Positions 168 to 7,153 of a stretch of DNA of 56,223 nt are shown piece after piece. Below the pieces are notes generated by a model. It saw nothing but the letters and a program-made list of their open reading frames with translations, was not told where the DNA came from and ran no database searches. Both the position numbers and the translations under genes were made by a program. The stretch is from an uncultured bacterium (lineage in GTDB: Bacteria; Vulcanimicrobiota; CADAWZ01), in the NCBI GenBank assembly GCA_949288455.1, contig CASEKF010000007.1:1-56223 (forward strand), read 5' to 3'. The first letter of the stretch is position 1. Every line of letters starts with the position of its first letter.

Positions 168-938
168 ATGTTTAAAAAATTTTTGCAAGCTCTTTGGAAA
201 TCTATAATTAAATCTTTAGATAAATTTTTCGCTATTTTCAGAGACCCGATAAAAACTGCCGAGAAAAAAATCGTCGAGCTTAACAAATTTCAGCAGGAAG
301 CTACTACAAGCCTAGGAAACATAAAGGCAATGTCGATAGAAACAAAACGAAATTTAGAAAAAAAACTTCAAGAAATAAAAATATATGAAGAAAGCGCCGC
401 GGCGGCTATTCGTAAAGCTAAACGGGGCGAAATATCTTCTCAAGAAGCCGATAGGAAAGCGGCAGAGGCTTTAAGTCAAAAAAATACGGCCGTAAAAGAA
501 GCAAAACACTTTAAAGTTATATTAGCCAATTACGGAGCTGCGGTGAAAAAGACTGAAGCTTCAGTCTCTGCTACAGAGCATCAAATTAGAACTCTTGAAA
601 ATGAAATATTAACGCTTAAAGCCAGAAAGAAAATGGTAGACTCCACCAAAAAAATAACAAAAAGTCTTGAGGATATGTCTTCGGGAGCGACCGGAGAAAG
701 CTTAAAAAGCTTGAAGTCGGAATTGAAAAAAGACGAACAATCTATAGCTCTTACTACATCGACGTATTCCGATATGTTAGATTTAGAAAGCGATTTTGAA
801 AGCAGTATTGAATCTGACGCGCTTTTATACGATACGGATATACAATCCGAACTTAATATGCTTAAAAGCAAAGTGGACGCTGACAACGAGGAATTTCAAA
901 GCGATATTGAAAATATAAGGACGCCTATAAAAAATTAA
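168..938 (+). CDS. pspA: PspA/IM30 (Vipp1)-family coiled-coil protein
   Basis: The 256-residue protein is almost entirely charged heptad-rich helix with no membrane segment. It starts with an amphipathic stretch (MFKKFLQALWKSIIKSLDKF), as in PspA/IM30 proteins, which bind stressed membranes and polymerise on the inner face. The central helix (about residues 40-190) matches the family's long hairpin; the acidic tail (about 200-256) is longer and more Asp/Ser-rich than in E. coli PspA. It heads a tight run of six same-strand genes (DUF4178, DUF350, two membrane proteins, SpeE-like), an arrangement resembling the E. coli yjfIJKLMC locus, where YjfJ is the PspA paralog. The Shine-Dalgarno is weak (GTAGGG about 12 nt upstream). 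The family call is good; specific PspA versus YjfJ orthology is not resolved. Confidence 0.8.
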   Translation: MFKKFLQALWKSIIKSLDKFFAIFRDPIKTAEKKIVELNKFQQEATTSLGNIKAMSIETKRNLEKKLQEIKIYEESAAAAIRKAKRGEISSQEADRKAAEALSQKNTAVKEAKHFKVILANYGAAVKKTEASVSATEHQIRTLENEILTLKARKKMVDSTKKITKSLEDMSSGATGESLKSLKSELKKDEQSIALTTSTYSDMLDLESDFESSIESDALLYDTDIQSELNMLKSKVDADNEEFQSDIENIRTPIKN

Positions 939-960
939 TATATAAGGAGAATAAAAAAAT

Positions 961-1590
961 ATGATTTTAGTAATGGTTTTTTGCATTTTAGCTATAATTT
1001 TGCTTATAGTAATTATAGCGCGAAATTCAGTTATTCCTAAAGGCAGCGTAAAGGGTACCGGAGGCCGCAGACCCAAAGGTTTGCATATTTTAAATCTTGA
1101 TCAGGGCGGAGTATTTCGCATAGCCGGAATCGGGCAAGATTCCGAAACTATGGAATTAAAAGTATTAGCTAAACACTTATACCGTCAACATGATTATTCT
1201 TGGTTCGAATTGGAATGCGATCAGGGAACAGGCGATAAAATATGGATGGAAGTAGAAGACGACGACGAGCTGCTTGTCAGTCTTGTATTAAAAAAATTGA
1301 CTTTAGCCGATTTGAACGTTACTCCTTCTTTTTTGCATAAAGCAGACGACGACGAAACCGGTTCAATAACTTACGACGGCAAGACTTTTCGATATGAAGA
1401 TTCCGACGAAGCTACTTTCTATAAATATTGCGATAGAGATAAGTCTGAAAAGTTTTATTATTGGGAATTTAAAAGCGGCAAATACAGCGTAAGCGTAGAA
1501 AAGTGGGGCGTAGGAGAATATACCGCGTTCTATTCCCAGCTTCTATCTCCAAATCAAATTACGGTATACAAAAATTCCGACGCTGAATAA
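961..1590 (+). CDS. DUF4178-domain protein with N-terminal membrane anchor
   Basis: A protein of 209 residues. Residues 1-20 form one hydrophobic helix (probable signal anchor), followed by a soluble beta-rich region with the DUF4178 pattern: a GGVFRIAGIG strand pair, a YSWFELEC segment and a later FYYWEFKSGKYSVSVEKWG core. DUF4178 proteins are recurrent neighbours of PspA, DUF350 and spermidine-synthase-like genes. The biochemical role is unknown. A clear AAGGAG site lies 11 nt before the ATG, and the gene begins 22 nt after pspA, so the two are probably cotranscribed. The E. coli positional counterpart is YjfK (DUF2491). Domain recognition is by pattern, not by search. Confidence 0.7.
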   Translation: MILVMVFCILAIILLIVIIARNSVIPKGSVKGTGGRRPKGLHILNLDQGGVFRIAGIGQDSETMELKVLAKHLYRQHDYSWFELECDQGTGDKIWMEVEDDDELLVSLVLKKLTLADLNVTPSFLHKADDDETGSITYDGKTFRYEDSDEATFYKYCDRDKSEKFYYWEFKSGKYSVSVEKWGVGEYTAFYSQLLSPNQITVYKNSDAE

Positions 1591-1606
1591 CAAGGAGAGT
1601 TCATAT

Positions 1607-2500
1607 ATGCAGGGACTTTTTGCAAATCCGATTTTTATAAGTTTATTTTACGTGCTTATTTCTTGTTTGATAATTCTATTGTCAAGAGTTGTATTTGATC
1701 AGTTCGCTTTATTTAAAGTAGGCAAAGAAATAAAAAAGAAAGCTCATACTCCCGTGATAGCTTTCGGAGGCTACCTGTTTGGAATAGTATGCATATTAGT
1801 CGGAGCATATGGAGGTCAGTCGTCTAATAATTTTATTCTCGATTTTGCTTATTATGTTTTATATTGCATTTTAGGCTTAATTCTTATGACAATATCTGGT
1901 CTTGTCGCTCAAAAAGTTATATTAAGAAAATTCGATAACGCAAAAGAATTGCTTGAAGACGCTAATATTGGAACCGCAGCCGTTCATTTTGGAGTATATT
2001 TGTCGTCCGGTCTTATCATAGCCGGATGTATATCGGGAGAAACGTCAAGTCAAGTTTCTATTCAATGGGCAGATTTTTTATCGACAATCGTATATTATGT
2101 CTTAGGCATGGCTTTTATGTTTTTATTTACTATGCTTTATGATAAGCTTACTCCATATTCAATACATGAAGAAATAGAAAAAGATAATTTCTCGGTCGGC
2201 ATAGCTCTTTCGGGAAATATTATAGCGATAGGCATAATTTTGACGAAAGCGACAATAGGAGAAAACGCCGCCGATTTGACCATCATGCAAAACGCGGCGG
2301 CATATGCTATAGATCTTACCGCAATTTTGCTTCTTCTGCCGGTCGTAAGACTTATTTTAGGAAATTTTCTTGTTAAAACGGTAGTGATGAACGAAGAAAT
2401 AAAAAATAATAACGTGGCCGCCGGTTTAATAGAATTTATTTCTATAATAAGTTTCGCTTTGCTTATATTCTTTATGGTCGATTTTACATCGGTAGTCTGA
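1607..2500 (+). CDS. DUF350-family polytopic membrane protein (YjfL-like)
   Basis: The 297-residue protein has about eight hydrophobic helices arranged as repeated units. Each unit carries the DUF350 hallmark: a small-residue-rich helix such as AFGGYLFGIVCILVGAYGG, FGVYLSSGLIIAGCISGE and GIALSGNIIAIGIILTKA, interleaved with helices ending in charged loops (EIKKKAHTP, EELLEDANIG, EIEKDNFSVG, EIKNNNVAAG). The 'E-x-DN-x-xxG' loop recurs, so the protein looks like an internal tandem duplication of the short DUF350 unit. The E. coli homolog is YjfL. It has a good AAGGAG site and lies 16 nt downstream of the DUF4178 gene. Function is not established; a channel or stress-sensing membrane component is only an inference. 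Confidence 0.75.
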   Translation: MQGLFANPIFISLFYVLISCLIILLSRVVFDQFALFKVGKEIKKKAHTPVIAFGGYLFGIVCILVGAYGGQSSNNFILDFAYYVLYCILGLILMTISGLVAQKVILRKFDNAKELLEDANIGTAAVHFGVYLSSGLIIAGCISGETSSQVSIQWADFLSTIVYYVLGMAFMFLFTMLYDKLTPYSIHEEIEKDNFSVGIALSGNIIAIGIILTKATIGENAADLTIMQNAAAYAIDLTAILLLLPVVRLILGNFLVKTVVMNEEIKNNNVAAGLIEFISIISFALLIFFMVDFTSVV

Positions 2501-2518
2501 AAGAAAGGAAATTGCTTT

Positions 2519-3124
2519 ATGAAGATAGATCCATACGAGGAACGGGCAAATCTTATTTTTTGCAATAATTTATGTTTAATGCTGTTAATCTTTGCAATAG
2601 CCTGTTTTATAACCAGTATGTATTTAATGCAGTCCGGTTCCATGTTAAAAACATACAAATACGCGAACGGTATGATAACGGATCCCATTGTGGTTAAAGA
2701 TGCAAATTTGCAAGTTTATAGAGTAAAAATTATAAACTCTTCTTATAATCAAAATACATATATCACCGGAGAAGTGCTGAACGATAAGAACGAATCTGTT
2801 TATAAATTTGGTAAAGAACTTTGGCATGAATCCGGGAGTGATATGGACGGTTATTGGTCTGAAAGCGATCGGGAAATGCAAACTGAATTGACTTTTAAAG
2901 AAAAAGGTTCTTATAGAATTAAATTTACTCATACCGGTTCCTTATCCCAACCTTCAATTTCTATTACGATATTTAATAAGGTAAAAAGCTATGTGGCTTT
3001 TGTTCAGGCCGGTTTTGCCGCTTTTATTTTAGCCGCGATAGCGTTTTATATCTTAAATATACAATGGATTCATGCCGCAATAGCCGGAGGCTTTAACGCT
3101 GTCAGCGAAGGAGTTGATGATTGA
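2519..3124 (+). CDS. Unknown protein with two membrane helices around an extracytoplasmic beta domain
   Basis: A 201-residue protein. One hydrophobic helix lies at about 20-40 (CLMLLIFAIACFITSMYLM) and another at about 160-180 (FAAFILAAIAFYILNI). Between them is a ~115-residue polar region with alternating strands (YRVKIINSSYNQNTYITGEV; ELTFKEKGSYRIKFTH), suggesting a beta-sandwich on the outer face. I do not recognise the family. A DUF4247-type or comparable accessory protein of the PspA/DUF350 module is possible from position only. An AAAGGA site precedes the start, and the 3' end overlaps the next gene by 11 nt, consistent with translational coupling. Confidence 0.6.
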   Translation: MKIDPYEERANLIFCNNLCLMLLIFAIACFITSMYLMQSGSMLKTYKYANGMITDPIVVKDANLQVYRVKIINSSYNQNTYITGEVLNDKNESVYKFGKELWHESGSDMDGYWSESDREMQTELTFKEKGSYRIKFTHTGSLSQPSISITIFNKVKSYVAFVQAGFAAFILAAIAFYILNIQWIHAAIAGGFNAVSEGVDD

Positions 3125-3371
3125 GATGACAAGAGATATTATAGGCTATACGATTATGGGGATATTTCTAATCGCAATATATTTTCTGTGTTTTAATCTG
3201 GCTGAAACAGGATACGGTTATCCCGGATACAGAGGCTATACTAATCATAGGGCATATTATATAGGGTATGGTTATTTCGGAAATTACGACGTATATCGTT
3301 CTCCCAGCAACAGAGAGACAAGTTCCGGAGGCTCAAGGTTCTCAAGAAAAGGCATAAACGGTGGAAAATAA
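3114..3371 (+). CDS. Small Gly/Tyr-rich single-pass membrane protein
   Basis: This 85-residue protein has one N-terminal helix (IIGYTIMGIFLIAIYFLCFNL) followed by a low-complexity tail rich in Tyr, Gly, Asn and Ser (YGYPGYRGYTNHRAYYIGYG), ending basic. The start is supported by AAGGAG upstream and by overlap with both neighbours (11 nt each side). No family is recognised. Its position between the beta-domain membrane protein and the SpeE-like gene matches that of E. coli yjfM, but homology is not shown. It could anchor a complex or self-associate through the aromatic tail; this is inference. Confidence 0.55.
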   Translation: MMIEMTRDIIGYTIMGIFLIAIYFLCFNLAETGYGYPGYRGYTNHRAYYIGYGYFGNYDVYRSPSNRETSSGGSRFSRKGINGGK

Positions 3372-4905
3372 CAATAATCTGAGACAGTTAAATTCTAAAG
3401 AAGCCGGAATTTTGCTAATTTCAGTTTTTATAGTCGGATTTTGCACCATTATTTACGAACTGTTAATAGGAGCCGTTTCTTCTTACTTCTTAGGAGATAG
3501 CATTAAGCAATTCTCTTTAGTAATAGGCTTGTCTATGACGGCTATGGGAATAGGCACGCTAATTTCCAGATTCATTAATAAAAATCTTATACTAAATTTC
3601 ATAATAGTAGAGACTTTGCTGGCTATAGTAGGAGGAGTAAGCGTACCCGCTCTTTACTTCGCATATATGCTCGCAGACGCCTACTATTTCGTAATGTGTT
3701 TGATCATTATTGTCATAGGAAGTTTAATAGGCTTAGAAATTCCGCTTTTGACGAGAATAATGGAAAAATATTACGAACTGAAAAGCAATATTTCCAACGT
3801 TCTTTCCCTTGATTATCTTGGATCTTTTGCGGCAACGCTGGTATTTCCATTTATTCTGATTCCTTTTGTAGGAATATTTAATACTTCCGTTTTAGCCGGT
3901 ATTTTAAATTTGGGAGTCGGCATCCTCAATTTAGCATGGTTCTATAAGAGACTTTCGTTGAGACAAACAAGACTGCTTTCAGCTCTATCCGGCATATCCG
4001 GAATAGTTCTTTTAGCGTTATTTATATGTTCGGTCGGAATTACAAAATATTGGGAAAAGTCTATATATGAAGATAAGGTTTTTTATTCTAAAAGAAGCCA
4101 TTATCAACATATAGTAATGACAAGGCATAAAGACGATTTAAGGCTTTTTCTCGACGGAAACGTTCAATTTTCGTCAATTGACGAATACAGATATCATGAA
4201 CTTTTAACGCATATTCCCCTGTCTCTCTCCGCTCATAGAGAAAATGTGATAATTTTAGGCGGAGGCGACGGGCTAGCCGTTAGGGAATTATTAAAATATC
4301 CCGAGATAAAAAAAATTACCGTAGTTGATCTTGATCCGGCTATTACGGAACTGGCTAAAACAAATCCGCGAATAAAAGATTTAAATAAAAATAGTCTTTT
4401 AAATGAAAAAGTAAACGTGATAAATACCGACGCTTATAAATATCTTGAGGAATCCAGCGATATTTACGACGTCATAATAATCGACTTTCCTGATCCGAAT
4501 AATACGTCTTTGGCCAGATTATATAGCGCCGAATTTTACAAACTTGTAAACAAACGATTAGCTAAAACCGGAATAACCGTAACGCAGGCTACAAGCCCTT
4601 ACTTTTCTCCCGAAGCGTTTTGGTGTATTAAGGAGACAATGAAAGCGGCAGGCTTTAATTATGTATATCCTTATCATGGATATATCCCTTCGTTTGGAGA
4701 CTGGGGATTTATGATGGCCTCGAAGATAAAATACGAAGTTTCTGATATCAAATTGCAAGTTGAAACAAGATATTTAGATAAAGATACTATAAATAGCTCT
4801 TTTGTTTTTCCAAAAGATCAACTTAGAGAGAATATACGCGCTTCCAGGCTTAATAATCCGACAATTTCAGAGTATTATTTAAAAGGATGGCAGTATTGGA
4901 AATAA
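3361..4905 (+). CDS. Membrane-anchored spermidine-synthase-like aminopropyltransferase
   Basis: A protein of 514 residues. Residues about 15-225 hold roughly seven membrane helices. Residues about 240-470 form a spermidine-synthase-like Rossmann fold with GGGDGLAVRELLKYP (SAM/dcSAM binding), VVDLDPAI (acidic residue after strand 2) and YDVIIIDFPDP at the site of the catalytic Asp motif. Multi-pass SpeE proteins of this size are known in bacteria, but their product has not been established for most. No S-adenosylmethionine decarboxylase is visible in the window, so the aminopropyl donor would have to be made elsewhere. The GTG start overlaps the preceding gene by 11 nt. It closes the six-gene module; no strong terminator is seen in the 268 bp that follow, only a T8 tract near 4965. 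Confidence 0.8.
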   Translation: MENNNNLRQLNSKEAGILLISVFIVGFCTIIYELLIGAVSSYFLGDSIKQFSLVIGLSMTAMGIGTLISRFINKNLILNFIIVETLLAIVGGVSVPALYFAYMLADAYYFVMCLIIIVIGSLIGLEIPLLTRIMEKYYELKSNISNVLSLDYLGSFAATLVFPFILIPFVGIFNTSVLAGILNLGVGILNLAWFYKRLSLRQTRLLSALSGISGIVLLALFICSVGITKYWEKSIYEDKVFYSKRSHYQHIVMTRHKDDLRLFLDGNVQFSSIDEYRYHELLTHIPLSLSAHRENVIILGGGDGLAVRELLKYPEIKKITVVDLDPAITELAKTNPRIKDLNKNSLLNEKVNVINTDAYKYLEESSDIYDVIIIDFPDPNNTSLARLYSAEFYKLVNKRLAKTGITVTQATSPYFSPEAFWCIKETMKAAGFNYVYPYHGYIPSFGDWGFMMASKIKYEVSDIKLQVETRYLDKDTINSSFVFPKDQLRENIRASRLNNPTISEYYLKGWQYWK

Positions 4906-5173: not shown

Positions 5174-7153
5174 ATGGAGAAAGTTTATACGGCTCCTGAT
5201 AATATAAAAAACGATTATAATTTGTTTATAAAATGGTGTTTGCAGAATAATATCAAGGAAGTAGGTCATGCTGTCGCTCCACTTGCAAGCTCTAAATTGA
5301 GATGTAAACCCGTCAATATAGAAGAGTTTTCTAAAAAACTTTTTGAAAACGGAAGCGAACTTGACGGATCAAGCTTCTCGACAGGAGGAGGAAGAGTCGT
5401 CCATCGTTCGATGGTTATGGCTAAACCTGATAGTGAAGGACGATGGTTTGTATTGCCTGATGAAATCAGAAAATCTACCTTGTTCATAATGTCTGATATG
5501 GAATCTCCTCAAGGAAGCGCAATGTGCGCTCGTAAACCTTTGGCTGATTCGGTTAGATATTTGGAAAATTCGCTTGATAGATTAATAAAAGCCGCAGGGG
5601 GCGAAAAACGACTTCCCATAGAACGTTATGCTTTAACGGTAGGATATGAAAAAGAATTCTTTATAGTTCCGAAAGATCAGTCTTCCAGAACAGATATAAA
5701 ATATTTAGGACAGACGATAACAGGAGGTCCCGGGCCTATAAATCAAAATTTAAGAGGAGTTTACCTTACTATTCCCAAAAGGGATGAAGAAGCTTTATTG
5801 TCAGATATAGTGACAGATTTGGCAAAACTAGGAATAACTGCCGTTCAGAAACATCTTGAGGTAGGTCAAACCGGAAATGAAATAAGAGGAAGACAATGTG
5901 AAATTGTCTTGAAATATTCTGACGCGATTACGGCTACCGATAACGATCTTATCGCTCGCCAAATTATTGAGGACGCTTGCGACAGACATGGATTCAAAGC
6001 CCTGTTCGGAAGCAAGCCTTTTACCGACGATACTGAAGGAGAAGGCATTAATGGAAGCGGTAAACATACTAATTTAAGTTTAGGCAGATACAATCTTGCT
6101 TCAAAAGAATTTACGGAGAATTTCTTTGAAAGTAAGCTTTTTTATCCATCAGCTGCCGGCGAAAACATATCTCTTATAGGTATAGCCATGCTTGCGGCTA
6201 TGGGAAGAAAATGGCAAGTTCTGGACGCTTCTATTTCTTCTAGAGGAAACGATCAGCGAAGACGTCCCGGTTTTGAAGCTCCTGTGTATCTCTCCGCGTT
6301 TATAGGAAATACCTCTGAATTTAGAGACTCTCTTGCTCAGGACAGAAATAGATCCGTTTCTATAGGTATTTCGGGCGATAAACTAGAATGGAGAACTCCC
6401 GGAGCGAATACTCCGATGTATTACCCGCTTGCTTTTCTTTCTTTAGCTATAGCCGAAGTTTTAGACGAAATTACTTTAAATATAGAAGCGTCAAAAAAAT
6501 CCTCTAAAACTATTCAAGAAGCTATAGATTTGGAATATGCCAGACTTAGACAGGAAACCGATTATTTTGTAGTCTCGGAAGACGTTTACGAACTGTCGCA
6601 ACAGGAAGCTGAAGAACGTTTTAGATGCAAAGTTCCTAAAAATACCCCCGACGCTTTAAAAATTTTTGACGAACAAGAAAAAATAGACTTCTTGATAAAA
6701 AGCGGAATTTTTACGGAAGAGATGGTTAAAGCTTTTAAAATGGTACAGCTGGAAACATATGTTCAAAGAGTTATCGCGGAAGCGATGGTTCTTTCAGATA
6801 TGGCTAAAGCTCTTGGAAACAAAACTTTTCAAAGCAGTATAATGAAGATGAACGTTCTAGAACTTAACGATATGGATCCAAGATTGGAGCAGAGAAAGAA
6901 AAATCTTGGAAAGCTGAACGCGGAACTTCTTATCTGCGCCGATTCCTCTTATATCGACGGAGAAGAATCTGAAGATAAGACTAAAGCAAAAGATCTCTCG
7001 GGGTTGGTAAGACGCATAAAAAATATAAATAACGCAGAGGAAGCAGCATGTGTTATTACTGAAGATTTGCTTCAAGCAATGTATAAAACACGGAAAATTT
7101 ATGAAAAAATGGTCGATTTAATGGGAGGAAGCGAAGAGGTCGCTAAACTGTAA
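5174..7153 (+). CDS. glnN: Glutamine synthetase, type III (GlnN-like)
   Basis: The 659-residue protein has the large size of type III glutamine synthetases (about 700 residues) rather than the ~450 of GlnA. Catalytic-domain motifs are visible: GYEKEFFIVP (metal-binding Glu), HLEVGQTGNEIRGRQCEIVL, NGSGKHTNLSLGRY (the GSGKH-type ATP/substrate signature) and LEWRTPGANTPMYYPLAF. The long helical C-terminal region (about 480-650) fits the type III extension. It would assimilate ammonium as ATP + Glu + NH3 to Gln in the cytosol. The gene is monocistronic, with its own 5' region and a strong terminator just downstream. The N-terminal third diverges from textbook GlnN, so subfamily certainty is moderate. 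Confidence 0.82.
   Translation: MEKVYTAPDNIKNDYNLFIKWCLQNNIKEVGHAVAPLASSKLRCKPVNIEEFSKKLFENGSELDGSSFSTGGGRVVHRSMVMAKPDSEGRWFVLPDEIRKSTLFIMSDMESPQGSAMCARKPLADSVRYLENSLDRLIKAAGGEKRLPIERYALTVGYEKEFFIVPKDQSSRTDIKYLGQTITGGPGPINQNLRGVYLTIPKRDEEALLSDIVTDLAKLGITAVQKHLEVGQTGNEIRGRQCEIVLKYSDAITATDNDLIARQIIEDACDRHGFKALFGSKPFTDDTEGEGINGSGKHTNLSLGRYNLASKEFTENFFESKLFYPSAAGENISLIGIAMLAAMGRKWQVLDASISSRGNDQRRRPGFEAPVYLSAFIGNTSEFRDSLAQDRNRSVSIGISGDKLEWRTPGANTPMYYPLAFLSLAIAEVLDEITLNIEASKKSSKTIQEAIDLEYARLRQETDYFVVSEDVYELSQQEAEERFRCKVPKNTPDALKIFDEQEKIDFLIKSGIFTEEMVKAFKMVQLETYVQRVIAEAMVLSDMAKALGNKTFQSSIMKMNVLELNDMDPRLEQRKKNLGKLNAELLICADSSYIDGEESEDKTKAKDLSGLVRRIKNINNAEEAACVITEDLLQAMYKTRKIYEKMVDLMGGSEEVAKL

Follow-up and report, generated by a model that had tools for sequence, protein, structure and literature searches.

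We analysed a window of 56,223 nt from an uncultured bacterium of the Vulcanimicrobiota (GenBank assembly GCA_949288455.1, contig CASEKF010000007.1, positions 1 to 56,223). An operon of six genes at 168–4905 encodes a PspA-family protein, a DUF4178 protein, a DUF350 membrane protein, a β-sandwich protein, a small membrane peptide (gene 5) and a fusion of seven transmembrane (TM) helices to a spermidine synthase (SpeE) domain (gene 6). The most informative feature of this locus, which an earlier sequence-only reading had missed, is that gene 5 ends in lysine: a lysine-terminal membrane or exported protein is encoded in 94 of 95 loci with a comparable core. From these sequence patterns we propose, with moderate confidence, that the locus encodes an envelope protein-modification system in which the membrane-bound SpeE would aminopropylate the C-terminal lysine of gene 5. 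The operon type has been published (Ravi et al. 2024, PMC11237479), which makes the gene set a known one; what is new is the class of lysine-ended gene 5 proteins.

Conservation of the terminal lysine

Gene 5 (3117–3371, + strand) encodes a peptide of 84 amino acids that is rich in glycine, tyrosine and arginine. It has one TM helix but no obvious lipobox, and it matches no Pfam family; TTG at 3114 is an alternative start. The translation ends in INGGK, and the terminal lysine codon (AAA; 3366–3368, + strand) is the proposed modification site. An example of a lysine-ended tail peptide is SGGSRFSRKGINGGK.

Counterparts in the same operon position were selected in 95 loci with a DUF350/DUF4178–SpeE core, the window included. 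We took the most hydrophobic small open reading frame (ORF) between the DUF4178 or gene-4 gene and the fusion, ignoring its C-terminus. This automatic choice ended in lysine in 79 loci, two of these being spurious ORFs (L075 and L123). In nine further loci (Clostridia-type) the DUF4178 protein itself ends in GGGxSxGK, and inspection revealed a lysine-ended protein in L049, L064, L072, L075, L081, L089, L105 and L146. The figure of 94 loci combines the blind choice and the inspection.

The small counterparts are one-TM proteins of 47–137 amino acids that have little in common beyond an SxRxGS or SVRDNPGxYRS motif and the terminal residue. In 77 small peptides the final lysine is preceded by glycine (63), histidine (13) or valine (1). 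Since some loci are near duplicates, clusters with less than 50% identity give the fairer figure; there are 35 of these, and all have the final lysine. The carrier of the tail varies, being a small peptide in most phyla, a DUF4178–TM protein in Clostridia-type loci and a DUF4247 lipoprotein in others. A member from a Novosphingobium plasmid, which ends in PSHK, was annotated by NCBI (5527–5673 of L160).

Among other proteins of the same loci, a final lysine was found in 7 of 120 SpeE fusions, 0 of 86 DUF350 proteins, 2 of 77 gene-4 proteins and 0 of 6 PspA proteins, and SpeD proteins rarely have it. DUF4178 proteins end in lysine in 10 of 28 cases, mainly in the tail-bearing architecture. The codon in the 77 small peptides is AAA (49) or AAG (28), followed by any of the three stops. 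None of these peptides has a Shine–Dalgarno core in its last 9 nt (0/77), and in 17 of them more than 12 nt separate the end from the following start codon. The median ratio of nonsynonymous to synonymous changes (pN/pS) was 0.34 over 52 pairs of small peptides. The use of both codons and all three stops, the pN/pS ratio and the missing Shine–Dalgarno core place the signal at the protein level.

Some trivial explanations could be rejected. That the GGK end results from a ribosome-binding site or from overlap with the start of the next gene is ruled out by the Shine–Dalgarno result, the HK ends and the 17 distant peptides; that the small ORFs are spurious is ruled out by the pN/pS ratio and the NCBI-annotated member. 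Nor are genes 4 and 5 lineage orphans, as counterparts of both were found across phyla.

DUF4247 proteins with and without the fusion

We compared DUF4247 proteins in 121 genomes from the order of G303 (Paenibacillus-type), of which 75 encode DUF4247 and three a full-length fusion. The DUF4247 proteins read there were mostly lipoproteins within PspA–DUF350–DUF4178 operons. Away from the fusion, none of 31 had a GK end, the ends being RRR, RGRR, KKR and similar. In contrast, all three fusion-linked exported or membrane proteins ended in GK (GGGPGVGK, GGGISAGK and GGGPDEGK), and two of the three fusion genomes also carry a non-linked DUF4247 paralogue without this end (KRRK, SKKR). For the GK end against fusion linkage, Fisher's exact test gave p=1.7×10−4, uncorrected for kinship. 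Four more fusion-linked DUF4247 genes encode GK-ended proteins (L167–L170). Since DUF4247 proteins that accompany PspA, DUF350 and DUF4178 without the fusion lack GK, the tail follows the enzyme and not these partners.

The fusion enzyme and the split DUF4178 protein

Gene 6 (3361–4905, + strand, GTG start) encodes a 7-TM, spermidine-synthase-like aminopropyltransferase fusion of 514 amino acids. It matches Pfam Spermine_synth (PF01564, 2.5×10−39) and NCBIfam PRK03612 ‘polyamine aminopropyltransferase’ (626 bits; cut-off 472). The AlphaFold2 model, with a predicted local distance difference test (pLDDT) score of 93.6, consists of seven long TM helices followed by the SpeE domain, and Foldseek matched gene 6 to aminopropyltransferases (E=1×10−16). 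The GGGDG motif that binds decarboxylated S-adenosylmethionine (dcAdoMet) is present. Asp375 and Asp378, which correspond to the catalytic aspartates of spermidine synthase, do not vary across 55 fusions. R277 and F445 are likewise invariant and H439 is present in at least 90%; the acceptor-side motifs include DxPDP.

Gene 4 (2519–3124, + strand; 201 amino acids) has no Pfam family. Its AlphaFold2 model (pLDDT 92.9) is a β sandwich (strands within residues 42–153) between two TM helices (5–39 and 159–198), to which Foldseek found weak jelly-roll or GOLD-like matches only, with a template modelling score of at most 0.4 by query length. A gene-4 profile matched the C-terminal 150 residues of DUF4178 proteins of 400–700 amino acids in most phyla; these begin with a zinc ribbon, followed by one or two DUF4178 domains. 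Since the gene-4 domain is elsewhere the C-terminal part of the DUF4178 protein, genes 2 and 4 together correspond to a single protein that is divided in the window. The sequence-only reading had listed two unknown partners, genes 4 and 5; both do lack a Pfam family, but gene 4 turns out to be a domain of the DUF4178 protein.

Gene-4 and DUF4178 proteins (e.g. in L125, L083 and L126) often have acidic ends such as GDDDDDD or GEDDDE, a possible electrostatic partner for a basic tail.

Membrane topology

In 120 fusions, lysine and arginine are enriched in the N-terminus and loops 2, 4 and 6. By the positive-inside rule this would place the N-terminus in the cytoplasm, and a chain that crosses the membrane seven times would then have its catalytic domain on the other side. 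The small peptides have a mean net charge of +1.1 before the TM helix and −0.1 after it, and 56 peptides versus 3 favour a tail outside. Several DUF4247 tails belong to lipoproteins, and the amine oxidase encoded in some loci begins with an apparent twin-arginine signal. Taken together, these predictions suggest that the catalytic domain and the lysine tail would both lie outside the cytoplasm; modification may also precede export.

Proposed mechanism and alternatives

In the proposed reaction, gene 6 would move aminopropyl groups from dcAdoMet to the ε-amine of the terminal lysine of gene 5. As the side chain of lysine amounts to a butylamine, the product would resemble spermidine tethered to the membrane. 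The dcAdoMet would be supplied by the genome's SpeD, encoded elsewhere in the window genome by a speD adjacent to an ordinary speE on another contig (G000:C66:53957-55103; L001, L003). The DUF4178 and gene-4 proteins may together form an assembly factor or sensor encoded in two parts, with DUF350 as a membrane partner, possibly in donor or product handling, and PspA as an optional membrane-stress adaptor. What we infer here is the reaction itself, its donor, what each partner does and the location outside the cytoplasm. Polyamine-type chemistry at the membrane, already suggested by the sequence-only reading, is supported to this extent. A more specific version, which we put forward tentatively, places the reaction on the outer face, where the external catalytic domain would add at least one aminopropyl group to the lysine of an envelope peptide and the 7-TM domain or DUF350 would carry dcAdoMet across.

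Several points weigh against modification of the lysine by gene 6. The modified peptide is so far predicted only, and an invariant terminal lysine could serve as a binding signal. L123 is the sole exception among the 95 core loci, with no lysine-ended protein, and a recognisable lysine-tailed neighbour is missing from approximately 16 of the 25 fusion loci that lack the DUF350/DUF4178 core. Moreover, dcAdoMet is made inside the cell, and the ligases of parallel logic discussed below need ATP; if the catalytic domain is external, its source of dcAdoMet is unexplained. Finally, a reverse cloning primer hints that mycobacterial Rv2599, a DUF4247 protein, may end in arginine (PMC3726780).

The fusion might instead be a membrane-bound synthase of spermidine or another free polyamine, with the lysine-ended peptide as a small regulatory or anchoring subunit. 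We consider this unlikely, although its NCBIfam family name is that of a polyamine aminopropyltransferase, its catalytic residues are intact and SpeD adjoins it in 35 of 80 loci. The window genome has SpeD and an ordinary SpeE, so that the fusion is not needed there for free spermidine, and several genomes behind related loci also carry a separate soluble SpeE. The 7-TM fusions reportedly fail to complement a spermidine synthase deletion, and their hosts are said to lack spermidine. In addition, the acceptor side is unlike that of ordinary SpeE (R277, F445, H439, DxPDP), and an enzyme of this kind would leave the invariant final lysine without a reason.

It also seems improbable to us that the terminal lysine, instead of being a substrate of gene 6, marks the protein for recognition or binding by DUF4178, DUF350, a protease or a transporter. 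The acidic tails (GEDDDE) on gene-4 and DUF4178 proteins of the same operons could pair with a basic tail, and the conserved SxRxGS or SVRDNPGxYRS motif upstream resembles a binding element. However, DUF4247 proteins encoded with PspA, DUF350 and DUF4178 but no fusion do not have the GK end, and most binding motifs would not demand placement exactly at the C-terminal residue. A matching end in the ligase systems described below also leads us to prefer ‘substrate’ over ‘binding signal’. Modification of the tail by another partner, either an unseen ligase that joins it to the cell wall or a polyamine or a downstream flavin amine oxidase that oxidises it, appears very improbable. A flavin amine oxidoreductase (PF01593) does lie downstream in some Acidobacteria-type loci (L091), as does a flavin adenine dinucleotide (FAD)-dependent oxidoreductase in Novosphingobium, but the oxidase is absent from the window and from many lysine-tailed loci, in which the fusion is the constant partner, and it could equally act after aminopropylation.

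Spermidine-synthase fusions reportedly occur in thousands of bacterial genomes, with an acceptor that is said to be unknown. A named acceptor and a single residue make this question testable. If gene 6 does aminopropylate gene 5, a protein modification would be added to those known, polyamine chemistry would be tied to the envelope-stress proteins PspA and DUF350, and many ‘spermidine synthase’ genes in databases would be misnamed. Polyamine-type groups occur on protein lysines in silaffins and hypusine, which involve unrelated enzymes or eukaryotic settings; neither is known to use the C-terminal lysine of a membrane peptide.

Organisation of the locus

All six ORFs were confirmed on the + strand within 168–4905, and the ORFs, the Pfam and NCBIfam matches and the AlphaFold models agree with the identities previously assigned to them. 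Gene 1 (pspA; 168–938, + strand) encodes a PspA/IM30-family protein of 256 amino acids (PF04012, PspA_IM30, 1.8×10−15). Gene 2 (961–1590, + strand) encodes a DUF4178 protein of 209 amino acids with an N-terminal TM helix (PF13785, 1.3×10−16), and gene 3 (1607–2500, + strand) an internally duplicated, YjfL-type DUF350 membrane protein of 297 amino acids (PF03994, 8.9×10−47, two stretches). The genes had been described as mostly overlapping. They are packed tightly, with gaps of 22, 16 and 18 nt between genes 1/2, 2/3 and 3/4, but overlap in only two of five junctions (genes 4/5, 8 nt; genes 5/6, 11 nt).

The host assembly comprises 2.13 Mb and is 99% complete. The window starts at contig base 1, and the region upstream of pspA is outside the data. 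A scan for promoters and terminators performed no better than on shuffled sequences, scans for Rfam families and tRNAs gave no matches, and no DUF2170 (CesT/Tir-like) ORF was found from the contig start to 5.2 kb. Downstream, 5174–7153 encodes a large, type III-like glutamine synthetase (659 amino acids) in its own transcription unit.

Distribution and neighbours of the fusion

A search for relatives with one genome per species returned at least 570, of which the best 80 were analysed; all are full-length fusions. Their loci were inspected together with flanks of up to 9 kb, and neighbours were counted within 6 kb of the fusion. DUF350 and DUF4178 (or the gene-4 domain) each occurred in 54 of these best 80 loci, followed by SpeD (35), PspA (6) and a YjfC-like ligase (5); the counts are lower limits because contigs end and the profiles were built from the window. 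Such fusions are reportedly found near SpeD and DUF350. The sample contains no Actinobacteria, neither in the named set nor from plasmid searches. By locus, the nearest named relatives are uncultured metagenome bacteria, the closest from sheep ileum.

The sequence-only reading had made PspA the organising element and had named missing linkage to pspA as an observation that would speak against it. With DUF350 and DUF4178/gene 4 near the fusion in 54 loci each and PspA in only 6, this observation was made as far as PspA is concerned, and PspA as the core of the system was rejected as a general rule. SpeD is commoner than PspA, which is peripheral to the system. It has been retained among close relatives of the window's genome (L034, L046, L048–L050, L053) and by some Firmicutes (L078, L168–L170, L206). 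In two genomes of the same family (G002 and G003; L034 and L046), the operon lacks DUF350.

Other neighbours were noted in individual loci. A flavin amine oxidoreductase-like protein often follows the fusion (L091:10473-12002, PF01593, 1.5×10−19; L160:7442-9058; L095; L113; L125); it has a twin-arginine translocation (Tat)-like signal in some loci and might oxidise an aminopropylated product. The Novosphingobium operon begins with an annotated SPFH (band-7) gene in place of pspA (L160:2583-3578), and an unclassified membrane protein of 485 amino acids precedes pspA in L206 (6782–8239). A ferritin-like protein lies just upstream of SpeD in Chitinophaga (L104:5699-6763; PF12902, 4×10−65). In L067 (3780–4838) and L105, which are Campylobacterota-type, the fusion is followed by a pyridoxal phosphate (PLP) decarboxylase that resembles carboxynorspermidine decarboxylase.

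Comparison with known systems

Ravi et al. 2024 (PMC11237479) described a PspA operon of six to seven genes with a 7TM-spermidine synthase fusion, DUF350, DUF4178 and a novel lipoprotein. Like this operon (e.g. Shewanella AAN56744–AAN56747), the window has PspA, DUF4178, DUF350 (8TM), an extra small gene and the 7TM-SpeE fusion. It differs in that no DUF2170 gene was found, and the small gene of the published operon was called a novel lipoprotein (Ctha_1186). With reference to Li et al. 2019, these authors raised the possibility of ‘aminopropylation of other substrates’; no acceptor is named in the text considered here, and the word lysine is absent from the paper. The mycobacterial Rv2598–Rv2601 DUF4247/DUF2617 operons (PMC11237479) resemble the window system in DUF350 and in an exported protein, DUF4247. 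Whereas DUF4247 proteins beside the fusion in Firmicutes end in GK, actinobacterial members may not end in lysine.

Compared with soluble SpeE, the window fusion has the same catalytic domain and aspartates. It differs in the 7-TM N-terminal domain, the invariant R277 and F445, the near-invariant H439 and, in core loci, the lysine-tailed partner.

The sequence-only reading had drawn a parallel to yjfIJKLMC of Escherichia coli, and the order DUF2170–PspA–DUF2491–DUF350–DUF1190–ligase was confirmed there. DUF4178 showed no detectable homology to YjfK/DUF2491. In both yjfIJKLMC and ygiBC, as in the window, a polyamine enzyme is paired with an exported protein whose C-terminal end is fixed, and yjf also has PspA and DUF350. 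In contrast to the window, their enzyme is an ATP-grasp ligase, for which Pfam found no gene among the window's six, and the DUF1190 protein ends in GG and not GK. YgiC and YjfC are annotated as peptide–spermidine ligases, and their neighbours YgiB and YjfM end in SMGG and HWGG (E. coli; L128, L211). Counting these two, proteins beside YgiC/YjfC-type ligases ended in GG in 10 of 11 examined, among them those of L218, L219, L221 and L222; the ends include SFGG and RSYGG. The GG end is found in relatives from Rhodobacter, Falsirhodobacter, Photobacterium and Proteus and in lipoproteins beside YjfC-like genes of four Saprospiraceae (L055, L068, L100, L117), and one Vibrio protein ends in GS. The GG end is a candidate natural substrate end for YgiC/YjfC-type ATP-grasp ligases. 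If aminopropylation of gene 5 is correct, a logic common with YgiBC and YjfMC is suggested, with G as the end residue for a ligase and K for a transferase. By this analogy, the end residue would suit the chemistry of the partner enzyme, offering a glycine carboxylate to the ligase and an amine to the aminopropyltransferase.

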